From: Cytophagaceae bacterium
GTDB taxonomy: Bacteria > Bacteroidota > Bacteroidia > Cytophagales > Spirosomataceae
NCBI GenBank assembly: GCA_027491315.1
Contig: JAIXWL010000011.1
Coordinates: 1-64,000 of the forward strand
Length of the DNA: 64,000 nucleotides
Reading direction: 5' to 3'
This document shows, piece after piece, positions 8,509-59,854 of the stretch (positions are counted from its first letter, which is position 1; the number at the start of each line of letters is the position of its first letter). The notes under the pieces are model-generated. The model was not told where the DNA came from and ran no database searches. It saw only the letters and a list, made by a program, of their open reading frames with translations. A program made the translations under genes and the position numbers.

Positions 8509-8511
8509 GGA

Positions 8512-11239: not shown

Positions 11240-11268
11240 CAAACGATACCTCAAAAATAATTTTTAAC

Positions 11269-41700: not shown

Positions 41701-41921
41701 CACAGGTTTCTTACAGTCAATAAACTATCAGGGTAGCGTAATTGTAATTCGGTTTCAAAATGGTCAAAATTGATCATTCGTGAACCTAGGTTATTACCTA
41801 CCAAGGAAATGGTCGTGTTTTTTTTGATTTGTAAGTATGGTGAATTGGAAGGTTGAAAAGAGCTAAATGCTATGATAGCTATTACAATACCTAATATCCC
41901 TAATCTGATTTTATAGGACAT
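38763..41921 (-). CDS. PVC-type heme-binding CxxCH protein (SGNH-propeller-HEAT-cytochrome c)
   Basis: This 1052-residue exported protein has a signal anchor (about 6-22), an SGNH-hydrolase-like domain (35-265), a six-bladed propeller of the membrane-bound dehydrogenase type (375-760, FDNKGRLWVAAMPTYPHY), HEAT-like repeats (780-900) and a C-terminal cytochrome c with CGTCH at 933-937 and a candidate axial Met near 990. The SGNH part has GNNL in place of GDSL and DGLQL in place of the catalytic DGxH, so it is probably non-hydrolytic. The propeller may oxidise a sugar and pass electrons to the heme. It lies next to a Tat-exported oxidoreductase. Confidence 0.87.
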   Translation of the reverse strand: MSYKIRLGILGIVIAIIAFSSFQPSNSPYLQIKKNTTISLVGNNLGSRMINFDHFETELQLRYPDSLLTVRNLCDGGDTPGFRPHSSRNDPWAFPGAEKFQLEFAKNSASEGHLEKHDVWLSRLKTDIVIAFFGYSESTEGPARVENYKAELNAFIKHTKNQKYNGLASPQLALVSPIAFEDLSSLRDLPNGKKENENLALYTKAMKEVAEQNNVLFLDVFEISQKWYEESKEPLTIDGLQLNNAGYQRLSLFLADKLFGKKSTEVESRRAMVQAAVDEKNWMWHNDFKIPNGVHVYGRRYNPFGPDNYPAEIEKIRQMTQIRQQAIWLAAREGKVLDVEAEDKKTRTLPAVTTNYNPEKNGSLRYLYGEEALKSIQVPAGYKLELFASEEQFPNLAKPSQMTFDNKGRLWVAAMPTYPHYKPGDPKPNDKLLIYEDSNGDGKADREIVFADHLQLPVGFEITQEGVFVSQGTNLVLLKDTNGDDKADSKEIIYSGFDDHDSHHEIHAFVSDESGAIYMGEGVFLHTNVETPYGTVRATNGGFYRFNPTRRHLERVAQLSIPNPWGIAFDRWGQNFFAETSGPDVRWMMPGSVLNRYGEANHKSYNLIEEAHRVRPTSGLEFISSRHFPDEVQGDMLINNTIGFLGMKQHQIWDDGTGYKSKHRVDLVKSEDRNFRPVDMEFAPDGSLYFIDWHNILIGHMQHNARDPLRDHTHGRIYRITYPSRPLLKPAKIYGASIDELLENLKLPEYRTRYRTRRELRGRQVAEVISKTKAWIAKLDKNDPNYEHHALEALWVTWGMNKIDQALLSQLLKAKDYHVRAAAVRAVRYNGHQLPNQAALLTQAAQDKHGRVRLEAIVAASWIGPAKGLPILALAKTKPLDDWMIHTYETAFAHLSGKGVERKKEVYGATNLKGADLESYTAGGALFGKEGYCGTCHQLDGKGLTASGFPPLSGSKWVTGNQDRLVKLVLKGLMGPMTVNGVKYSGQVPMTPFGGLMNDKEIADVLTYIRNAFGNKGSVVTPQKVKEVRASVLGKKDFYQVDKLLSEHPMED

Positions 41922-42020: not shown

Positions 42021-43472
42021 TTAATTTCCAAGTGTCCAGCCTTCGCGATAGGTTCTCTTGACAAAGGCATTGGCAGCGTCGTAATTGGTAACGCGCATGT
42101 TTTGATTATCCCATAACAACTTCGTGTTTGATCCTGGATAATGCATTCCATTTCCTGTTTTTCTAGGTACAGGGATATCCGCAACACGGATAGCCAAGTT
42201 AGCCATCAAAATAGCTTCTGTCAAAGGACCGGCCATTTCAAATGGTGAACTTAATTGCTTTTTGCCATATCCTGCAATACAGCCTTCTACCCATTGAGCA
42301 TAGTGACCGTCTGCACTACCTGGTACTCGCTCTAATTTACGAGGAACTTTTACTTCTTCGTTTCTAGATAAAGGTAATAAACGTGGGTTAGCTGCATATT
42401 CGCTTGCCATCATTTTTCCTTTGGTACCTATGAACAAGATTCCTGAATTACCATCCCCAAACATTTCATCTGGACCTAATTCTTCTGGTCTTTCTGGCTT
42501 AATACCACCATCCATCCAGTGCATGGTAATAGGACCTTGAGTACGATCCGTTTTAGGGAAAGTTAAGGTAGCATGACTTGAAGGAGGGCAACTATCTGGG
42601 AAAAATCCACGCTTTCCAAAAGCAGTAAATACACTACTTACAGAAGCTTGTACGTCTGATGCATATTTCAAATTCAATACACGGAAAGGAGCTTCCATTA
42701 AATGGCAACCTAAATCACCCAATGCTCCTGTACCATAATCCCACCAACCTCTCCAGCTACCTGGAATTAAGTTGTCTACATAATCCTTATAAGGAGCAGT
42801 TCCTAACCATAAATCCCAATCCAATCCTTGTGGAACAGCAGGCTTATTGCTTGGCCATGGGATACCTTGTGGCCAAATAGGACGATTCGTCCAGATTTGT
42901 ACTGTATGTACATCTCCAATGATACCCGCATCAAACCATTCTACCAATTGACGAACACCGTCTCCTGAAGAACCTTGGTTACCCATTTGGGTTACTACTT
43001 TATATTTTTTTGCAGCTTGAGTTAAGGCTCTTGCTTCATAAATATCATGCGTCATTGGCTTTTGCACATACACGTGCTTACCTAATTGCATGGCAGCCAT
43101 AGCCTGAATAGCGTGGTTATGATCTGGTGTAGAAACAGAAACAGCATCAAAACTTTTTGACTCCTTTTCTAACATCACACGCCAATCCTTATAATACTTA
43201 GCTTTTGGATAAGCTTCTACGGAATCCTTAGCCTGACGATCATCTACATCACATAGAAAACCAATGTCAGCCTTGCCACTTTGAGCAAAATAACGTAAAT
43301 CTGATTTTCCTTTACCTCCTACTCCGATACCGGCAACAACGATTTTATCACTGGGAGCTGTAAAGCCTTTTCCGCCCAATACGTGGCGAGGAACAATCAT
43401 AAAACCAGCAGAGGCTAAACTGGCAGACTTAATAAACTCCCTTCTGGAAGCATCGGATTTTTTTAGTTTCAT
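42021..43472 (-). CDS. Tat-exported Gfo/Idh/MocA-family oxidoreductase
   Basis: This 483-residue protein has a twin-arginine leader (ASRREFIKSASLA, residues 8-20), a Rossmann motif VVAGIGVGGKG (about 46-56) and a GFO_IDH_MocA C-terminal domain. The usual EKP is QKP here (YVQKPMTHD), keeping the catalytic Lys. A His that could act in catalysis lies in GDLGCHLMEAPF. It is a larger subtype than the other three in this window. It has its own promoter and terminator, and may feed electrons or product to the adjacent cytochrome-bearing protein. Confidence 0.88.
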   Translation of the reverse strand: MKLKKSDASRREFIKSASLASAGFMIVPRHVLGGKGFTAPSDKIVVAGIGVGGKGKSDLRYFAQSGKADIGFLCDVDDRQAKDSVEAYPKAKYYKDWRVMLEKESKSFDAVSVSTPDHNHAIQAMAAMQLGKHVYVQKPMTHDIYEARALTQAAKKYKVVTQMGNQGSSGDGVRQLVEWFDAGIIGDVHTVQIWTNRPIWPQGIPWPSNKPAVPQGLDWDLWLGTAPYKDYVDNLIPGSWRGWWDYGTGALGDLGCHLMEAPFRVLNLKYASDVQASVSSVFTAFGKRGFFPDSCPPSSHATLTFPKTDRTQGPITMHWMDGGIKPERPEELGPDEMFGDGNSGILFIGTKGKMMASEYAANPRLLPLSRNEEVKVPRKLERVPGSADGHYAQWVEGCIAGYGKKQLSSPFEMAGPLTEAILMANLAIRVADIPVPRKTGNGMHYPGSNTKLLWDNQNMRVTNYDAANAFVKRTYREGWTLGN

Positions 43473-43560: not shown

Positions 43561-44925
43561 TCAATTTAAACTATTTTTAATCCTACGATGACTTGTAGGC
43601 TTTTGGGCTTTGGATGCTAAATCGATTAGAACTTGATAAGGAACAGAAACTGATGTCATGTAAACAGGGTTTTGTTGGCTTGTATCCGTAAAACACTCCC
43701 AGGGGGCGCCAAATTCCATTCCTTTTCTAAAATCTCCTTGTTTTAAATCTTGGATAAACTCATCAATCAAGTGCTTTGCTTTTGAATTCGGGCTTAAAGA
43801 CATGGTATAGGCTACCCAAGCAGTGGCAGTAGACCAATAGGCCCCATTTTGATAGGTATCTTTTTTCACTAAACTTCCTTCCCAAGCTGTTTTTTCACTA
43901 AAATCGTCCGATTTTAAAACATGCCTCACAGCTCCGCGATAGGCCAATTCTTTGTCTAAATAGGCACTATTCAATCTTTGAGAAGCCTTCATTGCATCTT
44001 TTCCATGTAATACTCCCAAATAAACTGCCCAAGCTGTGCTCCAAACATCTGACTGGGCACTTTTCCCAGTGGAGGCTTTTAACATTCCGGTGGAATTCAG
44101 AAAAACACGAATGATTTGTTGTTTTACATAACCTGCGCGCGACTGCATTTGTCGAAATTCAACCCGATTTCCTTTCCATTGATATAATTCAGCGATTTGT
44201 AATAATGCCTGATAACGTAGTAAGGAACTAAAACATAAATCTCCTGTGATGTGGATGGCATCCCGAAAACCAAAATCTACTCCCCTATTCTTTTCATGCA
44301 CGCTAACCAATTGATTGACAGGATTAATAGGCACAGCCTCCAAAGCTAGGAGCAAGCGTTGAAACAAGCTAATTCCTCTAATGGGCTGATCTAGTATTGT
44401 TAGGTCTTTGCTTTGTTTTACATATTCGTAAGCCATTTGAATAAAATAAAACACATCATCTAAAGGTGGTTGATAGCCCCAACGAGTTTCTCCTTGATTT
44501 TCAACCGAATAGGTTCCGGGGAAATAAATAGCTTGCCCATCGTCGATTCGGATATGGTCAGCTATCGCTCCTCGGGGAATTATCGAACCAAATTTAGTCT
44601 TCCTCAATACGTCGTTTTGTGTCGTTGCCGTTAACATCAACATGTGTTTTTGTTCTTCCCATGACATCATCCCTGTTCCTACCGACATGGCATAATCACG
44701 AATCCAAAAAGCAGGATAAGAAGACCTCCCTCCTGGACGAATTAAGGTTCCACCGGTTTGATTAGGTCCAAAATCTGGGGAAATACGCTGGTTGGGTAAA
44801 ATCCTTGAACTATCAATTACCGCTTGAGTCAATTCTTTTAAAAAATCTAAATCAGATTTGCTAACCAAGCTTTGTGCGTGGATTTGTAGGGACGAAAAAA
44901 GGATGAATATGAAAAGAAAACGCAA
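43561..44925 (-). CDS. Secreted six-hairpin (alpha/alpha toroid) glycosidase-like protein
   Basis: This 454-residue protein has a signal peptide (1-17, ending IHAQ). The helix-rich sequence has an early GRSSYPAFWIRDYAMSVGTG block and later WSTAWAVYLGVLHG and GAYWSTATAWVAYTMSL, the pattern of (alpha/alpha)6-toroid glycosidases with an acidic WIRDYA site. I cannot place it in a numbered GH family. The only available start in a credible position is TTG (44923-44925); no ATG exists in frame upstream before a stop. A TACCTTTC box lies 18 nt upstream. Confidence 0.72.
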   Translation of the reverse strand: MRFLFIFILFSSLQIHAQSLVSKSDLDFLKELTQAVIDSSRILPNQRISPDFGPNQTGGTLIRPGGRSSYPAFWIRDYAMSVGTGMMSWEEQKHMLMLTATTQNDVLRKTKFGSIIPRGAIADHIRIDDGQAIYFPGTYSVENQGETRWGYQPPLDDVFYFIQMAYEYVKQSKDLTILDQPIRGISLFQRLLLALEAVPINPVNQLVSVHEKNRGVDFGFRDAIHITGDLCFSSLLRYQALLQIAELYQWKGNRVEFRQMQSRAGYVKQQIIRVFLNSTGMLKASTGKSAQSDVWSTAWAVYLGVLHGKDAMKASQRLNSAYLDKELAYRGAVRHVLKSDDFSEKTAWEGSLVKKDTYQNGAYWSTATAWVAYTMSLSPNSKAKHLIDEFIQDLKQGDFRKGMEFGAPWECFTDTSQQNPVYMTSVSVPYQVLIDLASKAQKPTSHRRIKNSLN

Positions 44926-45144: not shown

Positions 45145-46488
45145 ATGAAAAATTCACGCAGGAACTTCATTAAAAAGGCATCTACGGGAGCAGCCGTATT
45201 ATCCATAGGAGGAATTCTCCCAAGCTTTTCTGCTAAAAGTTACAGCCATATTCTTGGTGCCAACGAAAAGATCACCGTGGCTTGTATGGGGGTGAATAGT
45301 AGAGGTTTAGCCGTTGGGAAGAATTTCGCTGCACAAAAAAATTGTGAAGTATTGCATGTCAGTGATGTGGATTCCCGCGCAGCTGATATTTGTATCAATG
45401 CCATAGAAAAAATTCAGCATAAACGTCCTAAAGCTACCCCTGACTTCCGAAATGCCTTGGAAGATAAAGATGTTGATGTCCTGATCGTCACCGCTCCCGA
45501 CCACTGGCATGCCCCAGCTGCCATATTAGCTTGTTCAGCCGGGAAACATGTGTACTTAGAAAAACCTTGTTCGCATAATCCCAATGAGGGGGAACTTTTA
45601 GTAAAAGCGGCCGCTAAACACAAAAGAATCTTGCAAATGGGAAACCAGCGTAGATCATGGCCCAATGTAGCGGCAGCCATCGCTGAATTACATGCGGGGG
45701 TAATTGGCAAACCATATTACGCTAAAACTTGGTATACCAATAACCGAGCATCCATTGGAATAGGAAAAGAGACTGCAGTACCTTCTTGGCTAAATTATGA
45801 TTTATGGCAAGGTCCTGCGCCAAGAAAGGCCTTCAAAGATAATTTAATACACTATAACTGGCATTGGTTTTGGCATTGGGGAACTGGAGAAGCTCTAAAC
45901 AATGGCACCCACATGGTTGACTTGGCTCGGTGGGGTTTAAATGTACATTATCCTACCAAGGTTAGCTCCAATGGAGGTAGATATCGCTACCAAGACGATT
46001 GGGAAACACCTGATACCCAAATGATTAATTTGGAATTCGAGAATAAATCATTGATCACTTGGGAAGGAAGAAGCTGTAATGGGAAATCCGTAGAAAGCCA
46101 AAGTGTTGGAGTCATTTTTTATGCCGAACAAGGTTCCATGTTGATTGAAAGTGGAAATTCTTATAAAATATTCGACCTAAAGAATAACCTAGTGAAAGAA
46201 GTCAAAAATGACTTTGCCGTGGATGCTCGTAATTTGGCAGATCCTGCTTCCAATCTGGATGCTTTGCACATTCAAAATCTATTTGATGGAATCAAAAAAG
46301 GAGTGGCTGTTAATTCAGATATTTTAAGCGGTCACCAAAGTACTCTCCTTGTCCAATTAGGTAATATTTCTCAGCGCATCGGTCGAAGTCTTCAAATAGA
46401 CCCTCAAAATGGCCATATTTTAAATGATAAAGAGGCCATGAAGTTCTGGAGTAGAACTTATGAAAAAGGTTGGGAACCTAAAATTTAA
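45145..46488 (+). CDS. Tat-exported Gfo/Idh/MocA-family oxidoreductase
   Basis: This 447-residue protein has a twin-arginine leader (NSRRNFIKKASTG, residues 3-15) and the start of the mature protein SYSHILGANEKITVACMG. The latter closely parallels the enzyme at 11269 (SYSKILGANDRVRVACVG). The catalytic Lys is in YLEKPCSHN, with His/Asp in GTHMVDLARW. It lacks the GHGGMD signature of GH109 alpha-N-acetylgalactosaminidases. It is first in an operon with nagX, nagB and nagA (4-bp gap to nagX), so its substrate is plausibly an N-acetylhexosamine derivative. Confidence 0.88.
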   Translation: MKNSRRNFIKKASTGAAVLSIGGILPSFSAKSYSHILGANEKITVACMGVNSRGLAVGKNFAAQKNCEVLHVSDVDSRAADICINAIEKIQHKRPKATPDFRNALEDKDVDVLIVTAPDHWHAPAAILACSAGKHVYLEKPCSHNPNEGELLVKAAAKHKRILQMGNQRRSWPNVAAAIAELHAGVIGKPYYAKTWYTNNRASIGIGKETAVPSWLNYDLWQGPAPRKAFKDNLIHYNWHWFWHWGTGEALNNGTHMVDLARWGLNVHYPTKVSSNGGRYRYQDDWETPDTQMINLEFENKSLITWEGRSCNGKSVESQSVGVIFYAEQGSMLIESGNSYKIFDLKNNLVKEVKNDFAVDARNLADPASNLDALHIQNLFDGIKKGVAVNSDILSGHQSTLLVQLGNISQRIGRSLQIDPQNGHILNDKEAMKFWSRTYEKGWEPKI

Positions 46489-46492
46489 GCCG

Positions 46493-47614
46493 ATGGCTAG
46501 TCCAGAAAAAGATTCATTTATCAGTCAGCGCTTACATTCCTTGGATGCTCTGCGGGGCTTTGATATGTTTTGGATTATGGGGGCAGATGAACTCATCCAT
46601 AAAATAGCAGAACAAAGCCAATCACCTTTTTGGCAAGGTTTAGCCCATCAATTTAAACACGTAAAGTGGGATGGATTCCGAGTATACGATTTAATCTTTC
46701 CCTTGTTTATATTTTTGGCAGGAGTATCTACCCCATTTTCCATTGGTAGATCTTTGGACCAAGGAAAAAGCAAGGCCGATGTATTAAAAAAAGTAATAAC
46801 AAGGGGCTTAAGCTTAGTTATTTTAGGAATCATTTATAATGAAGGTTTAGAGATAAAGCCCATCGCTGAAATTCGGTTTTCCAGCGTTTTAGGAAGAATC
46901 GGTATAGCCTATATGATGGCTAATATCATTTATTTATACACCCAAGAAAAAGCTCAAATCATCTGGTTTTCAGGATTGCTATTGGCTTATTGGCTCATAC
47001 TTAAATTTACCTCTGCCCCAGGTTTCCCAATGGGTGATTTAAGTGAGCCAGGGAATTTCGCCTCCTACGTAGATCGAAGTATTTTGCCAGGCAGACTATC
47101 TCGAGGAATACATGATACCGTAGGTTTTTTCAACAATATACCAGCCATCAGCACCGCATTGGCTGGTATTATCACAGGAATATTCCTCAAAAAACAGGAA
47201 TATCAAGCTATACAAAAGGTTAAATGGATGTTGTATGCAGGGATCACTTCACTCCTCATTGCCCAAATATGGAATCTAGATTTCCCTATCAATAAAAACC
47301 TGTGGTCAAGTTCATTTGTGATGCAAACCACTGGGCTAAGTCTATTATTATTAGCTCTATTTTATTATATCATGGACGTAAAAGGCTATCAAAAATGGGC
47401 CTTTTTCTTCCAAGTTATTGGAATGAATTCCATCCTCATTTATTTATCTGGACATTTTATCGATTGGGATTATACCAATAATGCCCTATTTACCTGGTTA
47501 TTTCAACTCTTCGGAGAAAGCTTTTCAGTTTGTCTCTCCGTAGTTTGTGTGATCTTAATTAAATGGGTATTTTTAAGATTCCTTTACGAAAAAAAGGTCT
47601 TTTTACGCGTCTAA
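46493..47614 (+). CDS. nagX: DUF5009 / NagX-like membrane acyltransferase
   Basis: This protein of about 373 residues has ten or so transmembrane helices. It opens with LDALRGFDMFWIMGADELIH and VYDLIFPLFIFLAGVSTPFSIG, the heparan-alpha-glucosaminide N-acetyltransferase/DUF5009 signature. NagX proteins are encoded with N-acetylglucosamine catabolic genes in many Proteobacteria and Bacteroidota; transport or transmembrane acetylation of amino sugars has been suggested. I chose the ATG at 46493, 4 bp after the previous stop, and the 3' end borders nagB. Confidence 0.85.
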   Translation: MASPEKDSFISQRLHSLDALRGFDMFWIMGADELIHKIAEQSQSPFWQGLAHQFKHVKWDGFRVYDLIFPLFIFLAGVSTPFSIGRSLDQGKSKADVLKKVITRGLSLVILGIIYNEGLEIKPIAEIRFSSVLGRIGIAYMMANIIYLYTQEKAQIIWFSGLLLAYWLILKFTSAPGFPMGDLSEPGNFASYVDRSILPGRLSRGIHDTVGFFNNIPAISTALAGIITGIFLKKQEYQAIQKVKWMLYAGITSLLIAQIWNLDFPINKNLWSSSFVMQTTGLSLLLLALFYYIMDVKGYQKWAFFFQVIGMNSILIYLSGHFIDWDYTNNALFTWLFQLFGESFSVCLSVVCVILIKWVFLRFLYEKKVFLRV

Positions 47615-47625
47615 AGCCTATTACA

Positions 47626-48390
47626 TTGAAACTACACATTTTTTCTTCTCCTAAAAATTTAGGACAAGCTTCTGGCAGCTTAGCTGCAGAACATATCAAA
47701 CTGGCCATACAAAGTAAAGGTCAAGCTAATATCATTTTAGCCACAGGTACAAGTCAGTTCGAAACCCTGAATCAATTAATTCAAGAAAAAGACATCGACT
47801 GGAGCAAGGTTGTCTTATTTCATTTAGATGAATACATTGGCTTATCCATCGAGCATCCAGCTAGCTTTAGAAAATATTTAACAGAACGCTTTATTCAATT
47901 AGTTCCAACTTTACAAGCTGTTAATCTAATCAATGGAGAACATGATGCAGAAGCAGAATGCCAACGATTAAATAGCATTATTTCCCATCATCCTATTGAT
48001 GTGGCTTTGGTGGGCATCGGTGAAAATGGACACTTGGCATTTAATGATCCTCCCGCAAATTTTGAAACTAAAGATCCCTATATCGTGGTTCAATTGGATG
48101 AAGCATGCCGCAAACAACAAATGGGTGAAGGGTGGTTTCCTAGTTTAGAAGATGTTCCCCAGCAAGCCATCAGCATGTCGATTCAACACATCATGGCTTC
48201 CAAGAAGATCATTTGCTCTGTTCCTGATTTCAGAAAAGCAGAGGCCGTAAAAAATTGCTTGGAGAATGAAGTAAGTCCTTGGTATCCTGCCAGTATCCTT
48301 CAAAAACATCCCGATTGTTCCATGTATTTAGACCAACATTCGGCTGAATTACTTTCTCCTTCCATTAAAAAACAAGCCTTTACTGCCTAA
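47626..48390 (+). CDS. nagB: Glucosamine-6-phosphate deaminase (NagB-type)
   Basis: It converts glucosamine-6-phosphate to fructose-6-phosphate and ammonia. The HLDEYIGL block contains the general-base Asp. In the GIGENGHLAFNDPP loop the enolising-relay residues differ from E. coli (Asp141 becomes Asn, Glu148 becomes Asp) while the ring-opening His is kept; I recall this variant from Bacteroidota. Homology starts at KLHIFSSP, so I chose TTG at 47626. The only upstream ATG (47563) would overlap nagX by 52 bp. nagA overlaps its stop by 1 bp. Confidence 0.85.
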   Translation: MKLHIFSSPKNLGQASGSLAAEHIKLAIQSKGQANIILATGTSQFETLNQLIQEKDIDWSKVVLFHLDEYIGLSIEHPASFRKYLTERFIQLVPTLQAVNLINGEHDAEAECQRLNSIISHHPIDVALVGIGENGHLAFNDPPANFETKDPYIVVQLDEACRKQQMGEGWFPSLEDVPQQAISMSIQHIMASKKIICSVPDFRKAEAVKNCLENEVSPWYPASILQKHPDCSMYLDQHSAELLSPSIKKQAFTA

Positions 48391-49583
48391 TGAACTCAAA
48401 ACTTTCCCGATATAAAATCCATGGCGGTGCAGTCATTTTAAGGAATGAAATCCTTTTGAATGGGACGGTATTGGTTGAAAATGGGAAAATTCTTGAGGTA
48501 GTAGCTGGGAATGTGGATTTTCCCGATTCCATTGAAATAAATGCAGCAGGAAAGTACATTTCGCCAGGTTTTATTGATATACATATTCATGGCGGTGGTG
48601 GCCATGATTTCATGGATGGAACGGTAGAAGCTTTTTTAGAAATTGCCAAAACGCATGCGCGCTATGGCACTACAGCGATGCTTCCTACCACCTTAACTAG
48701 CGAAAAAGAAGATTTACTTTTAACCTTAGAGGCTTACCAAAAAGCCCATAAAATCAATACTGAAGGGGCTAGTTTCATTGGCATGCATTTAGAAGGGCCC
48801 TATTTTGCTTTAAGCCAACGTGGGGCACAAGACCCAAAATACATTCGAAATCCAGATCCTGAGGAATACCAATTCATCCTTGAAAATTACGATTGTATCA
48901 AACGCTGGTCGGCGGCACCTGAACTTCCAGGGGCTTTGGAATTTGGGGATTATGTAAATGCTCAAGGTGTTTTAGTAGCCTTAGCTCATACTGATGCCAT
49001 ATATGAGGAAGTCGAAAAAGCTTTCCAACATGGCTATCGATTAGCCACCCATTTTTATTCGGCTATGTCGGGGGTAACGAGAAAAAATGCATTTCGATAT
49101 GCAGGAGCAGTAGAAGCAGGGTATTTAATCGATGACATGGATGTGGAGATCATTGCAGATGGAGTTCATTTGCCCTCCCCACTTTTGAAGCTCGTATACA
49201 AAATCAAGGGTGCTAATAAAACAGCTTTAATCACCGATGCCATGAGAGCAGCAGGTTTGCCTCCAGGAAATTCTATTTTGGGCCATAAAGATAAAGGTTT
49301 AGCAGTTATCATTGAGGATGGAGTCGCTAAATTACCAGATAGAACTGCTTTTGCCGGAAGTATTGCTACCACCGATCGATTGGTTAGAACCATGTTGCAA
49401 ATGACGGATGTACCCTTATTAGAAGTTATTCAAATGATTTCTGCGGTTCCAGCTAGAATCATGAACATAGAGGAGCAAAAAGGTAGTTTATCAAAAGGGA
49501 AAGACGCTGATATCCTCATTTTTGATCAGGATATCAACATCCAAATGACCATGGTGAATGGTCGAATCGTCTATTCCTTATAG
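48390..49583 (+). CDS. nagA: N-acetylglucosamine-6-phosphate deacetylase
   Basis: This 397-residue amidohydrolase removes the acetyl group from GlcNAc-6-P. Metal and catalytic residues are visible: the HIHGGGGHD motif, Glu in MHLEGPYF, His in LAHTDA and THFYSAMSG, and catalytic Asp in LITDAMRAAG. It follows nagB with a TAATG overlap and completes the nagX-nagB-nagA set. Its 3' end overlaps that of the convergent DUF1080 gene by 6 bp. Confidence 0.94.
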   Translation: MNSKLSRYKIHGGAVILRNEILLNGTVLVENGKILEVVAGNVDFPDSIEINAAGKYISPGFIDIHIHGGGGHDFMDGTVEAFLEIAKTHARYGTTAMLPTTLTSEKEDLLLTLEAYQKAHKINTEGASFIGMHLEGPYFALSQRGAQDPKYIRNPDPEEYQFILENYDCIKRWSAAPELPGALEFGDYVNAQGVLVALAHTDAIYEEVEKAFQHGYRLATHFYSAMSGVTRKNAFRYAGAVEAGYLIDDMDVEIIADGVHLPSPLLKLVYKIKGANKTALITDAMRAAGLPPGNSILGHKDKGLAVIIEDGVAKLPDRTAFAGSIATTDRLVRTMLQMTDVPLLEVIQMISAVPARIMNIEEQKGSLSKGKDADILIFDQDINIQMTMVNGRIVYSL

Positions 49584-50294
49584 TTCTTTAATCTTGATAT
49601 TCTTAAAAGCGACATTATGTCCATGGTCCTGCAATAAGATATGTCCTTCTTGTATGGTAGGGTAATTGGGAAAAGTCTTGAATTTACTTTGCTGAAAACC
49701 CTCTAAAAATGCTTTAGATTTTCGGTTGATGGAGACAATCAATTTACCATCTAAATAATGTTCAATCTGATCATTATTAAAAACGATACGTGATGTATGC
49801 CAAATAGAAATATCAACATCAGGCTTTTGAGCGGCCGCAATTTGGTATAGTGAACCTGTTTTAATCTCAGCAGGTAGATGTTTATCATTGTAGATAAAGT
49901 CGGCATCGTCTATTAATTGGTATTCATAGCCTGGTTGCGAGCCACCAGAAGCTTTGGGCATTTTTTCCTCGACCAAATACTTGACGCCCGAGTTACCTAG
50001 TTTACCCAATTTCCAATCGAATCGTAAATCAAAATTTCGGTATTTTTTTAAACTGACTATATCTCCTCCATCGGCTGCTTCTCCCCCATTACTTAATTCC
50101 CCCAGCAAGGCTCCATCACGAATCACCCATCCTTTTTTTGGAAAATCATTCATAAAAGCACCACGCCACCCTTGGGTAGTTTTACCGTCAAACATCAAAG
50201 AAAAACCAGAGGACTTTTCACTTTTAGTTAGTGTATTATCCCTGGAACAAGAACATAAAATACAAACAATCAATAAGCTATATAAAATTTTCAT
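49578..50294 (-). CDS. DUF1080 (3-keto-disaccharide hydrolase) lipoprotein
   Basis: This 238-residue protein has a lipoprotein signal (lipobox LCSC, Cys16) and a single DUF1080 domain from about residue 30. It shares the segment GGDIVSLKKYRNFDLRFDWK ... NSGVKYLVEE with the second domain of the protein at 9878. The family acts on oxidised glycosides. It is 14 bp downstream of a Tat-exported oxidoreductase in the same operon, repeating the pairing seen at 9.9-12.6 kb. Confidence 0.88.
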   Translation of the reverse strand: MKILYSLLIVCILCSCSRDNTLTKSEKSSGFSLMFDGKTTQGWRGAFMNDFPKKGWVIRDGALLGELSNGGEAADGGDIVSLKKYRNFDLRFDWKLGKLGNSGVKYLVEEKMPKASGGSQPGYEYQLIDDADFIYNDKHLPAEIKTGSLYQIAAAQKPDVDISIWHTSRIVFNNDQIEHYLDGKLIVSINRKSKAFLEGFQQSKFKTFPNYPTIQEGHILLQDHGHNVAFKNIKIKEL

Positions 50295-50308: not shown

Positions 50309-51337
50309 TTATTTTTTAGAATACATATCAGCCAAGTTAACCTTAGCCCCTTGTTGGTTTTTACTCGCATCTGCTGCCTCCATGAAAGCAAATATCTCTA
50401 AAGTTTCTTCTTTGGAAACAGGGGGAATTCCTGTTTGAAAAAACTCGATGATCTTAAGTAAAAGAGGATCATAGCCCCCGTATGGACCTAAATGAATCAC
50501 AGAGTTTGAACCAAAGGCTGTCCCGCCATATTCCTGCTTCCCATTTTTCAATCCTCTAAACGTTCCAATACGTCCATCCTTCCAAACTCCCACCACCACC
50601 TCTTGATCATCATTGATGTAGCGATTGACCGATTGACAACCGGTACCCATCATAGTGAATAAGGTTTCTACTCCATGGATACCATACCAAAATAAATCAG
50701 GATGAGTCTTTTCTATTTTCATAGGACTGTAAGCATCTGCTCCCACAAGCTTGCCAGCTTTTCCAGCCCTTACTTCTTGGACACTGGCAGAATACCGTAA
50801 GGAAGAAGCTGAAAAGATGGGTACTTGGTACCTTTCAGCTGCCGCAAAAATAGCTTGCGCATCTTTCAAGGAAGCGGCAATGGGTTTGTCGATAAACATT
50901 CTTTTCCCAGCTTTAAATACTTCCAAGGCTTGCTCCAAGTGTAAGCGACCATCATTGGTCTCCAACATCACTACATCCACTTTGGATAGTAATTCTTGAA
51001 TCGAATTCACAATTTCTACGCCATATTTCTGAACTTCAGCTGTATAGCTAGGAATTCGCTCAGTACTTGAAACAATATCTTTACTACCTCTAGGATAAGC
51101 TGCCACAATCTTATAACCTGCATATTGGCTAGCCTCGGGAGCATTTAGGGCCTTGGTAAATGCCGTGGCGTGAGATGTATCCAAACCGATGATACCAATT
51201 CGTTTACCCACTTCTGCCTTTTGTTGCAAATGAGAAACTGGTTGGCCATTCATCATGGTATTTGAAGTGATAATGGCCAGGCCTGCTAAGGAACTTTGCT
51301 GAAGAAATTGTCTTCGAGAATTTAATTTATGTTTCAT
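50309..51337 (-). CDS. Tat-exported Gfo/Idh/MocA-like oxidoreductase, atypical nucleotide motif
   Basis: This 342-residue protein has a twin-arginine leader (NSRRQFLQQSSLAG, residues 6-19). The Rossmann glycine loop is GIIGLDTSHATAF instead of the usual GxGxxG, and the EKP motif is DKP (FIDKPIAAS), so cofactor handling may differ. It is shorter than the other three family members because the C-terminal domain is reduced. It is the middle gene of a minus-strand operon with a sugar importer upstream (20 bp) and a DUF1080 lipoprotein downstream (14 bp). Confidence 0.84.
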   Translation of the reverse strand: MKHKLNSRRQFLQQSSLAGLAIITSNTMMNGQPVSHLQQKAEVGKRIGIIGLDTSHATAFTKALNAPEASQYAGYKIVAAYPRGSKDIVSSTERIPSYTAEVQKYGVEIVNSIQELLSKVDVVMLETNDGRLHLEQALEVFKAGKRMFIDKPIAASLKDAQAIFAAAERYQVPIFSASSLRYSASVQEVRAGKAGKLVGADAYSPMKIEKTHPDLFWYGIHGVETLFTMMGTGCQSVNRYINDDQEVVVGVWKDGRIGTFRGLKNGKQEYGGTAFGSNSVIHLGPYGGYDPLLLKIIEFFQTGIPPVSKEETLEIFAFMEAADASKNQQGAKVNLADMYSKK

Positions 51338-51357: not shown

Positions 51358-52662
51358 TTATTTTCTGATTTTATGGCCATAGACCGAGTAAAAAACGAGG
51401 TATAAATAACATGGGAATAACACCCAATAGGCTGATCGTAAATCATAAGTATCGGCCAAATAACCATAAAATAAGGGCATAATGGCATTTCCACATAGGC
51501 CCATAATCAGAATGGAAGCCCCTAATTTGGTGAATTTACCTAATCCATCTAGGGCTAATGGCCAAATACCCGCCCATATCAAAGAATTGGAAAGACCCAA
51601 TAAAATCACAAAGCAAATGGAAATGTCTACCTGGTGACCTAGAAATTGGACTGTTCCATGACCAAAAATGATGCCTAAGGTAAATAAAGTTCCCAATAGC
51701 GTACAGATTCGGAAAGCATTCACTTGAGAAAGGTATTTGGGGATAAAAATGATTCCCAAAATATAACCAGCTATGGTCGCTAATAAGGTATAAGAAGGAA
51801 ATACCTTCGCCTCTAACAAGGCAATGTTCATGGATCCTGCATAGCCTATGATGGTATCAATAGCAATTACTTGGGTGCCAACATGTAAAAAGATGGCGAT
51901 AGCCCCTAAGATCAAATGCGGAAATTGAAAAATGCTGGTTTTACCGGCATTGGAGATGGCTTGCTCCTCCGACTCTGAGTCGGTATCAATCTCGGGTAAG
52001 GGAGAATAACGAACGACTAAACCTAATAAGAACAAAACTGTACCCACAATGGCATAGGGAATGGTAACCCGGCCGACTAATTCATCCAAAGCGGCATTAC
52101 GGGCTTCGCCTGTCATAGATGCCAAATTTTTAAACAAATCACTATCGGTAGCCTTTAAGATAACTGCGGCGAAAACCAAAGGGGCCAAAACCCCAGCTCC
52201 TTTATTGAAAATCCCCATGATGGAGATGCGTTGCGCTGCACTTTCTTGAGGGCCTAATACGGTGATATAAGGATTAGCAGCTGTTTGTAAGATGGCTAAT
52301 CCAGCACCTAATGTAAACAGCCCTAATAAAAATATGGGATAAGTGCGTGTTAAGGATGCAGGTAAAAAGATGAATGCCCCTAAAGACATAAGCCAAAAGC
52401 CCAACATCATTCCCCGTTTAAATCCAACCTTTTTTAACAAAAAAGAGGCTGGAACTGACATAACAAAGTAAGATATGTAGAAAGCAAAAGTGACAAAATA
52501 GGCCTGAAAATTACTCAGCTCACAACCAATCTTAAAATAAGGAATCAAGATGGCATTTACCCAGGAGACAAAACCAAAGATAAAAAACATGAATCCAATG
52601 ATCAGGATAGAGACTTGAGTGTCTCTCCTACTCAAAGCAGAAACGGAAACCGCTTTATTCAT
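51358..52662 (-). CDS. Sugar MFS transporter (FucP/NagP-like)
   Basis: This 434-residue transporter has 12 transmembrane helices of the FucP branch of the major facilitator superfamily. Family features are FGFVSWVNAILIPYFK in the first helix pair and AGLAILQTAANPYITVLGP followed by RISIMGIFNKGAG. The branch includes L-fucose, glucose/galactose and N-acetylglucosamine (NagP) symporters. Given NagA/NagB encoded on the opposite strand nearby, an amino sugar or its oxidised derivative is a reasonable substrate guess. It heads the operon 52662-49578. Confidence 0.87.
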   Translation of the reverse strand: MNKAVSVSALSRRDTQVSILIIGFMFFIFGFVSWVNAILIPYFKIGCELSNFQAYFVTFAFYISYFVMSVPASFLLKKVGFKRGMMLGFWLMSLGAFIFLPASLTRTYPIFLLGLFTLGAGLAILQTAANPYITVLGPQESAAQRISIMGIFNKGAGVLAPLVFAAVILKATDSDLFKNLASMTGEARNAALDELVGRVTIPYAIVGTVLFLLGLVVRYSPLPEIDTDSESEEQAISNAGKTSIFQFPHLILGAIAIFLHVGTQVIAIDTIIGYAGSMNIALLEAKVFPSYTLLATIAGYILGIIFIPKYLSQVNAFRICTLLGTLFTLGIIFGHGTVQFLGHQVDISICFVILLGLSNSLIWAGIWPLALDGLGKFTKLGASILIMGLCGNAIMPLFYGYLADTYDLRSAYWVLFPCYLYLVFYSVYGHKIRK

Positions 52663-52968: not shown

Positions 52969-54342
52969 ATGAAATCCTCCAAAAGACGTCAGTTTCTGAT
53001 GCAATCAGGTATTTTGAGTGCCGCTGCTGTGATTCCATCTTGGCAAAAAAAAGGCTTCCCCCCTCGTTCTTCCAACACACAGATTCCCGCCATTTTAGGA
53101 GGTAAATCAAATACATTACTTAGCAATTGGGTTAATTGGCCCATTTGGGATGCAGAAAAGGACGAAAAATTATTGCTGGAAGTTATGAGAAGTGGGGTTT
53201 GGTCCAGAGCCCAAATGGTGAAACAATTTGAAAAAGCTTGGGCTGATACCATTGGTACTAGCAGGTGTTTAACCTTAGTCAATGGCACTCAATCCCTCAT
53301 TGTGGCCATCAATCAAGCTAAGCTAGGTCCAGGTGATGAAATATTAGTAACCCCCTACACCTTTGTTGCTAGTATTCAAGCTATTTTGGCCAATGGTTGC
53401 ATTCCCGTCTTTGTGGATGTGGACCCTGAAACATTTCAAATGGACAGCCACAAGATTGAGGCGAAAATCAACCGCCGCACCAAAGCTATATTGCCCGTCC
53501 ATATTTTAGGATTACCCTGCGATATGTTGCATATCATGGAAATAGCTAAAAAACACCAACTTTTGGTGATTGAAGATGCTTGTCAAGCACCCTTGGCCGA
53601 AATCAATCATCAAAAAGTAGGCAGCTTTGGATTAGCGGGTTGTTTCAGTTTTCAAAATTCAAAAAATATTGCCATTGGTGAAGGAGGAGCTATCGTTAGC
53701 AATGACGAAGCCTACATGGATCGCTGCTATTCCTACCATAACTTAGGTTTTCCTTATGGGGTGGCCACTGGTTCTATCAGTGCTGGAAGTGTTATGCAAG
53801 GTAGTAAAGTACGATTTACGGAATACCAAGCTGCCATTGGTCTAGCCCAATTAACTCGTTTAGAAGCGCAAACCCAAACCCGAAATGAACGCGCTAGCTA
53901 TTTGTCTTCCATGTTGAAAACCATCCCAGGTATTCAAACCTATCGACTTTACCCCTCTGTCACTAGAGCGGCTTTTCATTTATTCCCTTTTCGATATAAT
54001 CCAGAAGAATTTAAGGGATTAAGTCGCGCTCATTTTTTACAAGCTTTACAAGCCGAAGGAGTTCCATGTTCGGGTGGTTATACGGCATTAAATACCCAAG
54101 CTTTTATCAAAGAGACTTTTGAATCTAAACAATTCAAAAAGCTATATTCCAAAAGTGAATTAATGTATTCGAGCTATATGGAACAAAATCAATGTCCTTT
54201 GAATGATCAATTGTGCCAAGAGGCAGTCTGGTTTACCCAAAATCTTTTATTAGGTTCTAAGGAAGACATGGAACTCATTTTCCATAGTATTCAAAAAATA
54301 CACCGTGAAGCTGAAGCCATTAAAAAGAAATTGCAGCCTTAA
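52969..54342 (+). CDS. Tat-exported DegT/DnrJ/EryC1/StrS-family aminotransferase
   Basis: This 457-residue PLP enzyme of the sugar-aminotransferase family has a twin-arginine leader (SSKRRQFLMQSGILSAAA, residues 3-20). The Schiff-base Lys232 is intact (FSFQNSKNIAIGEGG), as is Asp203 that holds the pyridine nitrogen (VIEDACQAP). Members normally work in the cytoplasm on nucleotide-linked keto sugars. Tat export of the folded holoenzyme is compatible with PLP but is unusual in biology. Neighbouring exported oxidoreductases could supply keto sugars. Two genes follow in the same direction (11-bp gap, then a 4-bp overlap). Confidence 0.87.
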   Translation: MKSSKRRQFLMQSGILSAAAVIPSWQKKGFPPRSSNTQIPAILGGKSNTLLSNWVNWPIWDAEKDEKLLLEVMRSGVWSRAQMVKQFEKAWADTIGTSRCLTLVNGTQSLIVAINQAKLGPGDEILVTPYTFVASIQAILANGCIPVFVDVDPETFQMDSHKIEAKINRRTKAILPVHILGLPCDMLHIMEIAKKHQLLVIEDACQAPLAEINHQKVGSFGLAGCFSFQNSKNIAIGEGGAIVSNDEAYMDRCYSYHNLGFPYGVATGSISAGSVMQGSKVRFTEYQAAIGLAQLTRLEAQTQTRNERASYLSSMLKTIPGIQTYRLYPSVTRAAFHLFPFRYNPEEFKGLSRAHFLQALQAEGVPCSGGYTALNTQAFIKETFESKQFKKLYSKSELMYSSYMEQNQCPLNDQLCQEAVWFTQNLLLGSKEDMELIFHSIQKIHREAEAIKKKLQP

Positions 54343-57286: not shown

Positions 57287-59854
57287 ATGAAACAAATTTC
57301 CGCCTTATTTTTACTAATAGCAGCCATTCTTTTGCCGAGCCTCACTTTCGCCCAAGATAAACCAACCATTAATGCCAAAGTTTCTGGTAAGGTCATCGAT
57401 GCTAAAACAAATGAATTTATCATCGGAGCTTCTGTTGTTATTAAAGGTACAACCAACGGGTCTTCGACAGATGCCAATGGAGAATTCACCCTTATAACTG
57501 GCCAAAAACTACCATTTACGTTGATTGTTTCTTATGTAGGCTATCAAAAGAAGGAGGTCATCATCAACAGCAACAAAGTGGAAATTTCCATTGAAGAAAG
57601 CACGAATGAATTAGGGGATGTCGTGGTAACTTCAAGAAGACGTCAAGAATCCATTCAAGAAATTCCCATTCCCATCTCAGTCATCCGCGGGGCTGTTGCC
57701 GAGGATGCAGGTGCATTTAATCCAAATCGATTAAAAGAATTGATTCCTTCAGTCCAGTTATATTCATCCAATGGACGAAATACAACCTTAAATATTCGTG
57801 GACTCGGTTCTTCCTTTGGCCTAACCAATGATGGTATTGACCCAGGTGTTGGATTTTATGTAGACGGAGTTTACTATGCTCGTCCAGCAGCTACGGCCAT
57901 TGACTTTGTGGATGTGGATCGGATTGAAATATTGCGTGGACCACAAGGAACTTTATTTGGCAAAAACACTACAGCAGGAGCTTTTAACATCACGACTAGA
58001 ACTCCAAGTTTTACCCCAGGTGCTAGTTTTGAGGCTAGTTACGGTAACTTAAATTATATCCAAGTTAAAACATCCGTTACTGGCCCAATAAGTAAAAAAT
58101 TGGCTGCTCGCGTTTCCTTTTCAGGAACACAAAGAGATGGTACTATTTTCAATTTGACCACCTTGAAACCGACCAATACCCTTAATAATGTAGGATTCAG
58201 AACCCAATTATTATACACTCCCTCAGAAAATGTAAACATCACATTTGCTGGTGATAATGCCCGCCAAAGACCCGATGGCAATGCAACCTTGGTAGCTGGG
58301 GTAGTTCCAACCAAACGTGCTGCATACCGCCAATTCAACTCCATCATTTCAGATTTAGGCTATAAATTACCAAGCAATAATCCTTTTGATCGAATAACAG
58401 ATGCCGATTCCCCTTGGAGGGTAAACAATGATTTTGGTGGTGCTTCCATTAACGTTGATGCTAAAATCGGGAAAGGTACCCTAACCTCAACTTCGGCTTG
58501 GCGCTATTGGATTTGGGATCCATCCAACGACCGGGATTTCATAGGCCTACCCGTGTTAACTAAATCACAAGGAAATTCAAGACACGACCAATGGACTCAA
58601 GAAATTCGCTATGCGGGCCAGTTTTCTGAAAGACTAAGTGGTGTTTTTGGTGTATTCTTAATTGATCAAATCTTAACCTCTGATCCGGTTCAAACGGAAG
58701 AATCTGGTTCTGCTCAGTGGCGATTCGCTCAAAGCTCCACTTCCCCACTTTGGAAAACACCTGGTTTATTTGATGGTTTTGGTACTAAAACTACCTCCAG
58801 ACTACATACATTAGGTGCAGCAGTATTTAGTCAAATTGATTGGAAGATTACTGACAAATTGCACGTCTTACCCGGTATTCGTTTTAACTACGATAAAAAA
58901 GATGTGGATTACAAAAGAGAGACTTATGGTGGCTTACAGACAAGCGACCCAGCTTTAGTCGCCTTGAAAAATGGTTTATATACCAACCAAGCTTTTACTT
59001 TCAGTGTGAATGAAAATAATTTTTCAGGACAAGTTACTTTGGCATACAAACCTAGTAAATCCTTGAACTTATTTGGAACAATTTCCAATAGCTACAAGCC
59101 CGTGGGAGTAAACTTAGGTGGACTACCGACTGCCAACGGAGCTGTGCTAATAGATTTAGCTAGAGTCAACCCAGAATATGTAACTCACTATGAATTAGGC
59201 CTAAAAACTAAGCCAAGTGCTCAATCCAATTTAAATATTACGATATTTAATACTGACATTAAGGATTATCAAACCCAAGTTCAAACCGCGGAAGTTGGGG
59301 TAAACAGAGGTTATTTGGCCAATGCGGAAAAAGTTCGGGTGAAAGGTATAGAGATTGATGGTAGCATTCGTTTAAATAATCATTTATCCTTTACAGGTGC
59401 ACTATCTTATACAGATGGTATATACGTATCATTCAAAAATGCACCTGTACCTTTAGAAGAAACCGGTGGTACATCTGCTTTCAAAGAAGTATCTGGAGGG
59501 ACATTACCAGGTATCTCCAAATGGGCAGGTTCATTGAGCGGAGAATACATACAATCTGGAAAGTTCTTATCGCTAAAAGGTAATTATTTCATAGGATTAG
59601 ATACCTATGCTCGCTCCACCTTTTCATCAAGTGCCTCACCTTCTCAATACCTAAACATTGCAGGATATAACATTGTCAATGGAAGAATAGGATTCCGTGC
59701 TTCCAATGGTTTCTCCGTTTTACTGTGGGGTAGAAACATTCTTGATCGAGATTATTTTGAGCAATTATTACCAGCGGCAGGAAGTGCAGGACATTATGCT
59801 GCCGTTTTAGGTGACCCAGCTACCTATGGCGTAACGCTTCGCTTTACTTATTAA
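57287..59854 (+). CDS. TonB-dependent receptor with CarboxypepD_reg-like domain
   Basis: This 855-residue outer-membrane transporter has a signal peptide (1-22), a carboxypeptidase-regulatory Ig domain (about 31-110, SGKVIDAKTNEFIIGASVV), a plug (about 115-230, with FYVDGVYYARPAAT and VDRIEILRGPQGTLFGKNTT) and a barrel ending GVTLRFTY. The plug is of the iron-complex or general TBDR type, not SusC, and no SusD gene follows. It is a single-gene unit with a strong terminator. Ligand unknown; GTATAC-type repeats upstream suggest specific regulation. Confidence 0.88.
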   Translation: MKQISALFLLIAAILLPSLTFAQDKPTINAKVSGKVIDAKTNEFIIGASVVIKGTTNGSSTDANGEFTLITGQKLPFTLIVSYVGYQKKEVIINSNKVEISIEESTNELGDVVVTSRRRQESIQEIPIPISVIRGAVAEDAGAFNPNRLKELIPSVQLYSSNGRNTTLNIRGLGSSFGLTNDGIDPGVGFYVDGVYYARPAATAIDFVDVDRIEILRGPQGTLFGKNTTAGAFNITTRTPSFTPGASFEASYGNLNYIQVKTSVTGPISKKLAARVSFSGTQRDGTIFNLTTLKPTNTLNNVGFRTQLLYTPSENVNITFAGDNARQRPDGNATLVAGVVPTKRAAYRQFNSIISDLGYKLPSNNPFDRITDADSPWRVNNDFGGASINVDAKIGKGTLTSTSAWRYWIWDPSNDRDFIGLPVLTKSQGNSRHDQWTQEIRYAGQFSERLSGVFGVFLIDQILTSDPVQTEESGSAQWRFAQSSTSPLWKTPGLFDGFGTKTTSRLHTLGAAVFSQIDWKITDKLHVLPGIRFNYDKKDVDYKRETYGGLQTSDPALVALKNGLYTNQAFTFSVNENNFSGQVTLAYKPSKSLNLFGTISNSYKPVGVNLGGLPTANGAVLIDLARVNPEYVTHYELGLKTKPSAQSNLNITIFNTDIKDYQTQVQTAEVGVNRGYLANAEKVRVKGIEIDGSIRLNNHLSFTGALSYTDGIYVSFKNAPVPLEETGGTSAFKEVSGGTLPGISKWAGSLSGEYIQSGKFLSLKGNYFIGLDTYARSTFSSSASPSQYLNIAGYNIVNGRIGFRASNGFSVLLWGRNILDRDYFEQLLPAAGSAGHYAAVLGDPATYGVTLRFTY

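Follow-up and report, generated by a model that had tools for sequence, protein, structure and literature searches.

A candidate twin-arginine-exported sugar aminotransferase and its partner genes in Bacteroidota

Sugar amination is taught as a cytoplasmic reaction, mostly one of nucleotide sugars. The subject of this study is a gene at positions 52969..54342 (plus strand) of a 64,000-nucleotide stretch from a freshwater Cytophagaceae bacterium (assembly GCA_027491315.1, contig JAIXWL010000011.1, positions 1 to 64,000). It encodes a 457-residue aminotransferase of the DegT/DnrJ/EryC1/StrS family with a twin-arginine translocation (Tat) leader and the pyridoxal phosphate (PLP) residues Lys232 and Asp203. 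The whole stretch, called the window below, is G000:C16 of a 2.9-Mb genome in 17 contigs. The closest described systems include BtrR and RbmB (2c7t, 5w71, 5w70), which are L-glutamine:2-deoxy-scyllo-inosose aminotransferases and work in the cytoplasm in antibiotic biosynthesis. They share a W-x-x-W-P start and the C-terminal region with the window enzyme and belong to its top Foldseek group at 27–28% identity. However, the window enzyme is Tat-leadered, whereas BtrR and RbmB are cytoplasmic and, to our knowledge, have no such leader. Fic25 and AHBA synthase (8gyh, 1b9h) take Foldseek ranks 1 and 9, but they come after GDP-perosamine synthase by profile and are secondary-metabolite enzymes that are not known to have an export leader. 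BtrR, Fic25, AHBA synthase and RbmB use free substrates and not nucleotide-linked ones. The pairs NtdA/NtdC and WlbA/WlbE resemble the locus in joining a DegT enzyme of the same Pfam family to a Gfo/Idh/MocA oxidoreductase (Gfo). Nevertheless, NtdA and WbpE rank well below BtrR, and these pairs are cytoplasmic and act on phosphorylated or nucleotide sugars.

PvdN and PtaA of Pseudomonas lie outside the DegT family, and they act on a glutamate residue of pyoverdine, which is siderophore tailoring and not glycan use. In a review (PMC6206403), both are described as PLP enzymes that are exported folded via Tat and are active in the periplasm, where PtaA converts the glutamate residue to a keto acid. 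The window enzyme would resemble them as a PLP enzyme with folded Tat export. Export of a PLP enzyme is thus not new in itself, since PvdN and PtaA are already known. The 3-keto-glycoside route, with the Gfo models BT_2158 and BT_2159 and the DUF1080 protein BT2157, is also comparable. The window has leadered Gfo proteins, one of them BT_2158-like, and DUF1080 proteins; PMC9007349, however, which deals with DUF1080 hydrolases, does not use the word “aminotransferase” in its main text. NagX is proposed there to acetylate periplasmic glucosamine (PMC9007349), and NagP is given as an N-acetylglucosamine carrier in Shewanella (PMC2996990). In the open-licence PubMed Central literature, by titles and abstract openings, no DegT-family Tat substrate was recognised, with subscription journals and annotation outside this scope.

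The leader and the clade that carries it

Judged by their sequences, the leader-bearing enzymes appear to form one clade that is found in this bacterium and in many relatives. The assignment of the open reading frame to a putative sugar aminotransferase of extracytoplasmic kind is well supported by sequence. Residues 63-388 match PF01041 (E 8.9e-92; 308.5 bits against a gathering score of 19.8). K232 and D203 are invariant across the 20 rows of the aminotransferase alignment A1 and align with a Lys and an Asp of BtrR in the profile search. The bacterium is Aquirufa-like, with an orthologue in Aquirufa ecclesiirivi that is 89% identical. An initial annotation of the window had described a DegT-type enzyme with PLP residues Lys232 and Asp203 and an RRQF motif, and each of these was found where it had been placed.

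The leader (52969..53070, plus strand), MKSSKRRQFLMQSGILSAAAVIPSW, is of Tat type: KRRQFLM and a short hydrophobic stretch stand before the PAILGG domain boundary. Its assignment rests on the conservation of RRxF among 58 distinct orthologues, which have at least 50% identity, were freed of identical copies and were read upstream to the preceding stop. They were collected from a contig scan for close relatives (12 loci) and from genome searches. Not all of them are independent: clustering leaves 35 groups at 90% identity and 22 at 80%. The R, R and F are invariant in 58/58; 42 have S at -1 of the motif, and 55 have K or R at +5. Eighteen codon combinations encode the two arginines, and between 42 and 64 residues separate the motif from the invariant W-P of the domain. 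In 53 of 60 rows the leader is more hydrophobic than the threshold that was set (1.6), and the lowest value is 1.55. In the sister group, which is 37–41% identical, the RRxF leader is absent from all 20 fetched members. The seeming absence of the leader from the orthologue L143 is due to a fetched stretch that ends inside the gene, and the leader is visible in L207.

A mis-annotated start was considered as the origin of the leader and is ruled out, because RR is kept through synonymous codon change while the linker to W-P varies in length. The variation of this linker also indicates that selection acts on the motif. The initial annotation had called this a clear Tat leader, as its presence in every orthologue and in no sister-group member bears out, and had named as contrary outcomes, besides a cytoplasmic protein, homologues without the leader and a leader that is a mis-annotated extension. 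Neither of these two turned up, the only leaderless homologues being those of the sister group. TIGR01409, a curated Tat model, matched eight of nine leader fragments at E <= 1, four of the nine above its cut-off of 16.7 bits; it missed the leader of L056 and left the leaderless control unmatched. TatC is encoded in the genome (E 2.7e-66). From the leader sequence we infer that the window aminotransferase would be exported by Tat.

The clade was delimited in a tree of 103 DegT proteins, thinned from 128, which was built by a quick method from the last 400 residues. All genome samples lie within Bacteroidota, and the scan for close-relative contigs also returned Bacteroidota. The 44 leader-bearing rows form one clade with a support of 88 (Shimodaira–Hasegawa-like approximate likelihood ratio test, SH-aLRT), within which a 40-row core is supported at 99. 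Besides the core, the clade contains the pair L069/L148 and the pair L203/L204, of which the latter (RK in L203, RR in L204) shares about 36–38% identity with the window protein; the grouping of the two pairs is uncertain and may be false. The long branch L040 adjoins the clade. Two further proteins, L175 and L106, were scored as leader-bearing by an accident of the regular expression and lie outside the clade without a hydrophobic stretch. L203 (8797-10158), whose locus contains SusC, has SRKQF, in which the Tat motif is varied to RK.

Recurrent partner genes

The surroundings of the gene were compared in 34 orthologue loci, where a partner was counted at a tblastn E of 1e-10 with more than 35% of the query or 90 bits. 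Their lengths differ, contig ends truncate some of them, and the set includes near relatives as well as cases of two copies in the same genome. The most frequent partners are C2, a protein of the PF04734 type (25 loci), the beta-propeller C1 (23), and SusC and SusD (20 each). They are followed by the C5 type of Gfo (14), the C4 type (12, in a search that may also catch other Gfo proteins), NagB and a NagP-like carrier of the major facilitator superfamily (MFS; 11 each), and NagA (9). RidA, a DUF7133 haem protein and an amidohydrolase_2 pair each occur in eight loci, a high-potential iron-sulfur protein (HiPIP) in six and NagX in five. As controls, ten loci around leaderless DegT genes were used, a small hand-picked set. 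By the same criterion, C1, C2, NagA, NagB, the MFS carrier and RidA were found in none of these ten; SusC was found in two, and SusD, NagX, a C5-like Gfo and DHDPS in one each. The initial annotation had suggested a search for homologues with the same leader and neighbourhood, and both do recur, the leader in every orthologue and the partners in varying sets among the 34 loci.

The set of partners varies. C2 was not found in nine loci (L051, L052, L054, L058, L111, L137, L150, L151, L206) and no C1 was found in eleven (L111, L113, L137, L138, L139, L150, L151, L206, L207, L208, L209), and for some of the C1-negative or C2-negative loci the genome has C1 on another contig or beside another copy. 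In L137, none of the partners of the 34-locus tally accompanies the aminotransferase. Loci of the Daejeonella type (L051) contain heparinase II/III, the DUF7133 protein and a Tat-leadered HiPIP. Directly upstream of their aminotransferase lies a gene with three RidA (PF01042) stretches that is signal-bearing by eye (L051:6558-7769). In the other five RidA-positive loci, RidA, where it was read (L065, L112), is short, has no signal and lies several kilobases off. The locus of the leadered paralogue L068 contains SusC/SusD, MurQ, an MFS carrier, a PF04734 protein just over the cut-off and a kinase with weak NagK/BadF matches; no MurQ was found in the stretch examined of L148, the tree partner of L068. 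In L206 (genome G678), two very similar Tat aminotransferase genes (7877-9253 and 11048-12424) flank the amidohydrolase_2 pair, an apparent duplication.

In the window, the aminotransferase, C1 and C2 form one run with gaps of 11 bp and -4 bp. C1 (54354..55652, plus strand; 432 residues) starts 11 bp after the aminotransferase and is an undescribed protein without an export signal, whose beta-propeller fold is predicted from a structure model and Foldseek, where its matches are generic propellers. No Pfam or NCBIfam match was found for it at E 0.001, and some of its relatives have weak matches, mostly to propeller or Kelch repeats. It is 57–82% identical to 15 other rows of alignment A2, with invariant His, Arg and Tyr residues. 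By eye, convincing signals in the main C1 type are seen in L056 and L112 only. A propeller of a second type, which bears a lipoprotein signal, occurs in L141, where it stands beside NagB, and in L145, and two distant propellers also exist.

The propeller and the aminotransferase occur together. In a phylum sample of 395 genomes, in which the aminotransferase was taken as a DegT match above 700 bits (six of the 61 genomes listed), C1 is present in six genomes and the aminotransferase in the same six. In two of them, G350 and G358, the genes lie on different contigs and are not adjacent, so adjacency alone does not explain the co-occurrence. In the family sample of 121 genomes, orthologues were DegT matches of at least 760 bits (41 of the 50 genomes listed), and matches of 526–662 bits, namely the sister group, the L068-type paralogue and G592:C53, were left out. 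Both proteins are present in 38 genomes, the aminotransferase alone in three (G619, G630, G640), the propeller alone in one (G592, a genome that is 78% complete) and neither in 79 (Fisher p 1e-26, a value that ignores relatedness). Among ten listed genomes of the window's genus, six have both and four neither. Among the genomes with lipoprotein-type or distant propellers, G741, G768 and G769 were not matched by the aminotransferase profile at E 1e-100; G706 has both propeller types and the aminotransferase. C1 may be cytoplasmic, or it may be carried out of the cell by the aminotransferase.

C2 (55649..56995, plus strand; 448 residues) overlaps C1 by 4 bp and is a putative ceramidase-like zinc amidohydrolase with a leader of the general secretory (Sec) type by eye. 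It matches PF04734 (E 2.3e-24; 86.4 bits against a cut-off of 32.1). In the alignment with neutral ceramidases (4wgk), HTHSGP, CH, E and Y are conserved, although the stretch with E and Y is weak (2.0 bits). These residues are presumably the ceramidase zinc ligands. By its sequence, C2 could free an amine from an N-acylated substrate. What the sequences show directly is the protein family, the conservation of the leader, the clade, and the partner genes with the pattern of their co-occurrence.

The other neighbours include genes of amino-sugar use and of oxidoreductases. Divergent from the aminotransferase lies the gene of the NagP-like MFS sugar transporter (51358..52662, minus strand; NF046060 381.6 bits, under the cut-off of 625). 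On the same minus strand, it is joined by a Tat-leadered Gfo of the C5 type (50309..51337; PF01408 E 2.8e-13) and by a 3-keto-disaccharide hydrolase of the DUF1080 family (49578..50294; PF06439 E 6.7e-39), which is lipoprotein-like by eye. The plus strand encodes the N-acetylglucosamine-6-phosphate deacetylase NagA (48390..49583; TIGR00221 297.9 bits, over 225.65), a NagB-like glucosamine-6-phosphate deaminase (47563..48390; TIGR00502 151.7 bits, under 236.9), a NagX-like transmembrane glucosamine N-acetyltransferase (46460..47614; NF046061 319.5 bits, under 480; no Pfam match) and a Tat-leadered Gfo of the C4 type (45145..46488; profile matches). Downstream of C2 lies a TonB-dependent receptor gene (57287..59854, plus strand; PF00593, PF07715). 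RRxF stands at the N-terminus of 12/12 listed C5-type Gfo sequences. The initial annotation had counted four Tat-leadered Gfo proteins in the window, and four with RRxF leaders were indeed seen (starts 11269, 42021, 45145, 50309). The one at 42021-43472 resembles the glycoside 3-dehydrogenase BT_2158 (NF058561 481 bits, under 750). Adjoining the Gfo genes, 38763-41921 encodes a 1052-residue fusion protein, in which a GDSL-like region (28.9 bits, below the cut-off) is joined to a DUF7133/PVC-type domain, HEAT repeats and a cytochrome c domain. Between two Gfo genes lies a 454-residue protein (43561-44925) for which no Pfam or NCBIfam match was found at E 0.001. At the left end of the window, two open reading frames (64-1268) resemble, by eye, an IS3-type transposase pair.

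Substrate, direction and competing explanations

The substrate is probably not nucleotide-linked. In the A1 profile search, BtrR came first (5w71, E 5e-90, profile positions 35-443; 2c7t, 4.5e-89), and then came an Archaeoglobus sugar transaminase (7b0d, 1.6e-85), RbmB (5w70, 4e-80), GDP-perosamine synthase (3e-79), Fic25 (1e-78) and AHBA synthase (6e-77); WbpE (6e-63) and NtdA (3.5e-55) were well below. With a single sequence instead of the profile, the archaeal 7b0d came first. The AlphaFold model of the window aminotransferase has a mean predicted local distance difference test (pLDDT) of 83.8, with low confidence for residues 258-279, close to the expected active site. With this model, Fic25, BtrR, AHBA synthase and RbmB fill Foldseek ranks 1-13, with BtrR second after Fic25, and 7b0d and GDP-perosamine synthase come next. 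None of the NCBIfam equivalog cut-offs was reached (PseC 208.6 bits against 423.5, ArnB 174.1 against 631, WecE 148.8 against 434.85). A free substrate is favoured because BtrR leads by profile and the group of Fic25, BtrR, AHBA synthase and RbmB by fold, and a nucleotide-sugar enzyme is not favoured on the same grounds and by the failure of any curated equivalog model. A kanosamine route like that of NtdA is not favoured either, by the rank of NtdA in the profile. The free sugar proposed in the initial annotation is in line with these relatives, but at about 28% identity to BtrR and RbmB the substrate itself is not named and need not be an inosose. BtrR, together with a neighbour from the creatininase family in L062, brought an inositol or inosamine route into consideration.

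Export, substrate class, order of steps and direction are what we infer from these comparisons. The best explanation, which we hold tentatively and rate just short of an even chance, is an exported PLP enzyme that acts on a free cyclic sugar or sugar residue and removes amino groups catabolically in a locus of amino-sugar utilisation. The enzyme would fold and bind its cofactor in the cytoplasm, pass the inner membrane through Tat and work outside it. The C2 amidase would release the amine of an N-acylated sugar, the aminotransferase would move the amine to a keto acid and leave a keto sugar, and an exported Gfo oxidoreductase would reset or use the keto group. Any imines could be hydrolysed by an exported RidA. 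The amino sugar that remains would be imported by the NagP-like carrier and passed to NagA and NagB. Amino-group removal is placed first because of SusCD, NagA, NagB, C2, the exported RidA and, in one case, MurQ.

A wider reading, which is possible but unlikely as a whole, joins these elements into a Bacteroidota system of extracytoplasmic amino-sugar transamination. One Tat-exported BtrR-like clade in SusCD loci would act with a ceramidase-like amidase that is secreted, with oxidoreductases of the Gfo or haem/HiPIP kind and with RidA, and amino groups would be removed or exchanged on free sugars before uptake, with the propeller as a Tat hitchhiker. If C1 travelled in complex with the aminotransferase, this would explain why it often follows the gene and why the two are lost together.

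Several observations weigh against amino-group removal by an exported enzyme. The window leader itself scores 13.3 bits with TIGR01409, under the 16.7 cut-off, and an obvious AxA cleavage site is not visible in the window protein. Only 5 of 42 C1 rows pass a crude hydrophobicity test for an export signal, of which one is borderline and two are of the B type. Below the partner criterion, a distant C2-like protein (25% identity) occurs in the control locus L212, and a distant MFS protein (24% identity) in the control L210, which also has a NagX-like gene. Nag genes are present in only about one third of the loci, and the eight with the amidohydrolase_2 pair have no Nag gene. Since the loci split between those with Nag genes and those with the amidohydrolase_2 pair, the substrate may differ from one group to the other. 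GDP-perosamine synthase, a nucleotide-sugar enzyme, stands directly behind RbmB and before Fic25 and AHBA synthase by profile, and among the NCBIfam models PseC scores best, although it stays far below its cut-off. NagX, as placed by the literature on periplasmic glucosamine, would fit amino-sugar production too, and a periplasmic amino acceptor has to be assumed.

The strongest rival, still doubtful, reverses the direction. Exported Gfo or haem/HiPIP-linked dehydrogenases would make keto sugars, the 3-keto-disaccharide hydrolase would release them, the aminotransferase would aminate them, NagX would acetylate the product and NagP would import it. BtrR and RbmB, the nearest relatives, aminate keto rings. 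A DUF1080/PF06439 hydrolase and Gfo proteins are encoded beside the aminotransferase, the 42021 protein is like a glycoside 3-dehydrogenase, and a NagX-like gene lies in the window. The proposal of glucosamine acetylation in the periplasm by NagX fits this route, as does the statement in PMC9007349 that the fate of 3-ketogalactose is unknown. Nevertheless, NagX occurs only in the window and its nearest relatives among the 34 loci, the DUF1080 cluster C9 in 5 of 28 loci, and the MurQ locus L068 showed no NagX. The amidase partner is left without a role, and glucosamine as product would need a ketone at position 2. The initial annotation had proposed oxidation followed by amination. The adjoining Gfo and 3-keto-disaccharide hydrolase genes bear out its gene context; its order of steps is conjectural, and the NagP-, NagA- and NagB-like partners, C2 and RidA fit catabolic removal at least as well.

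It is improbable that the enzyme is an exported biosynthetic one that tailors a surface glycan or a secreted small molecule, as PvdN and PtaA do with pyoverdine. These known Tat-exported PLP enzymes are tailoring enzymes, and the titles of the closest solved structures point to secondary-metabolite pathways, but SusC and SusD in 20 loci each, NagA in nine and NagB in eleven point to uptake and breakdown. Quite improbable is an ordinary aminotransferase that stays on the cytoplasmic side, with the leader as a mere N-terminal anchor. The lack of a clear cleavage site and the mostly signal-free propeller partner would suit it, whereas the R, R and F kept in all 58 orthologues amid variable surroundings, and the leaders of C2, Gfo, HiPIP and RidA, argue for export. 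The least probable alternative by our estimate is an exported PLP enzyme with chemistry other than transamination (elimination, epimerisation or dehydration), for which the unusual chemistry of PvdN and the possible handling of imines or ring-opened products by RidA and PF04909 partners would speak, but Lys232, which the dehydratases ColD and E1 lack, is kept, and the nearest relatives are aminotransferases.

If a conserved aminotransferase of glycan-utilisation loci is indeed exported, bacteria would edit the amino groups of sugars outside the inner membrane, which raises a testable question about the source of the amino donor or acceptor. The C1 propeller is a conserved family without a Pfam or NCBIfam match here, yet it is a firm genomic partner of the aminotransferase. 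The exported enzyme would also offer a candidate answer for the fate of keto sugars that arise from periplasmic glycoside oxidation, as in the case of 3-ketogalactose (PMC9007349).

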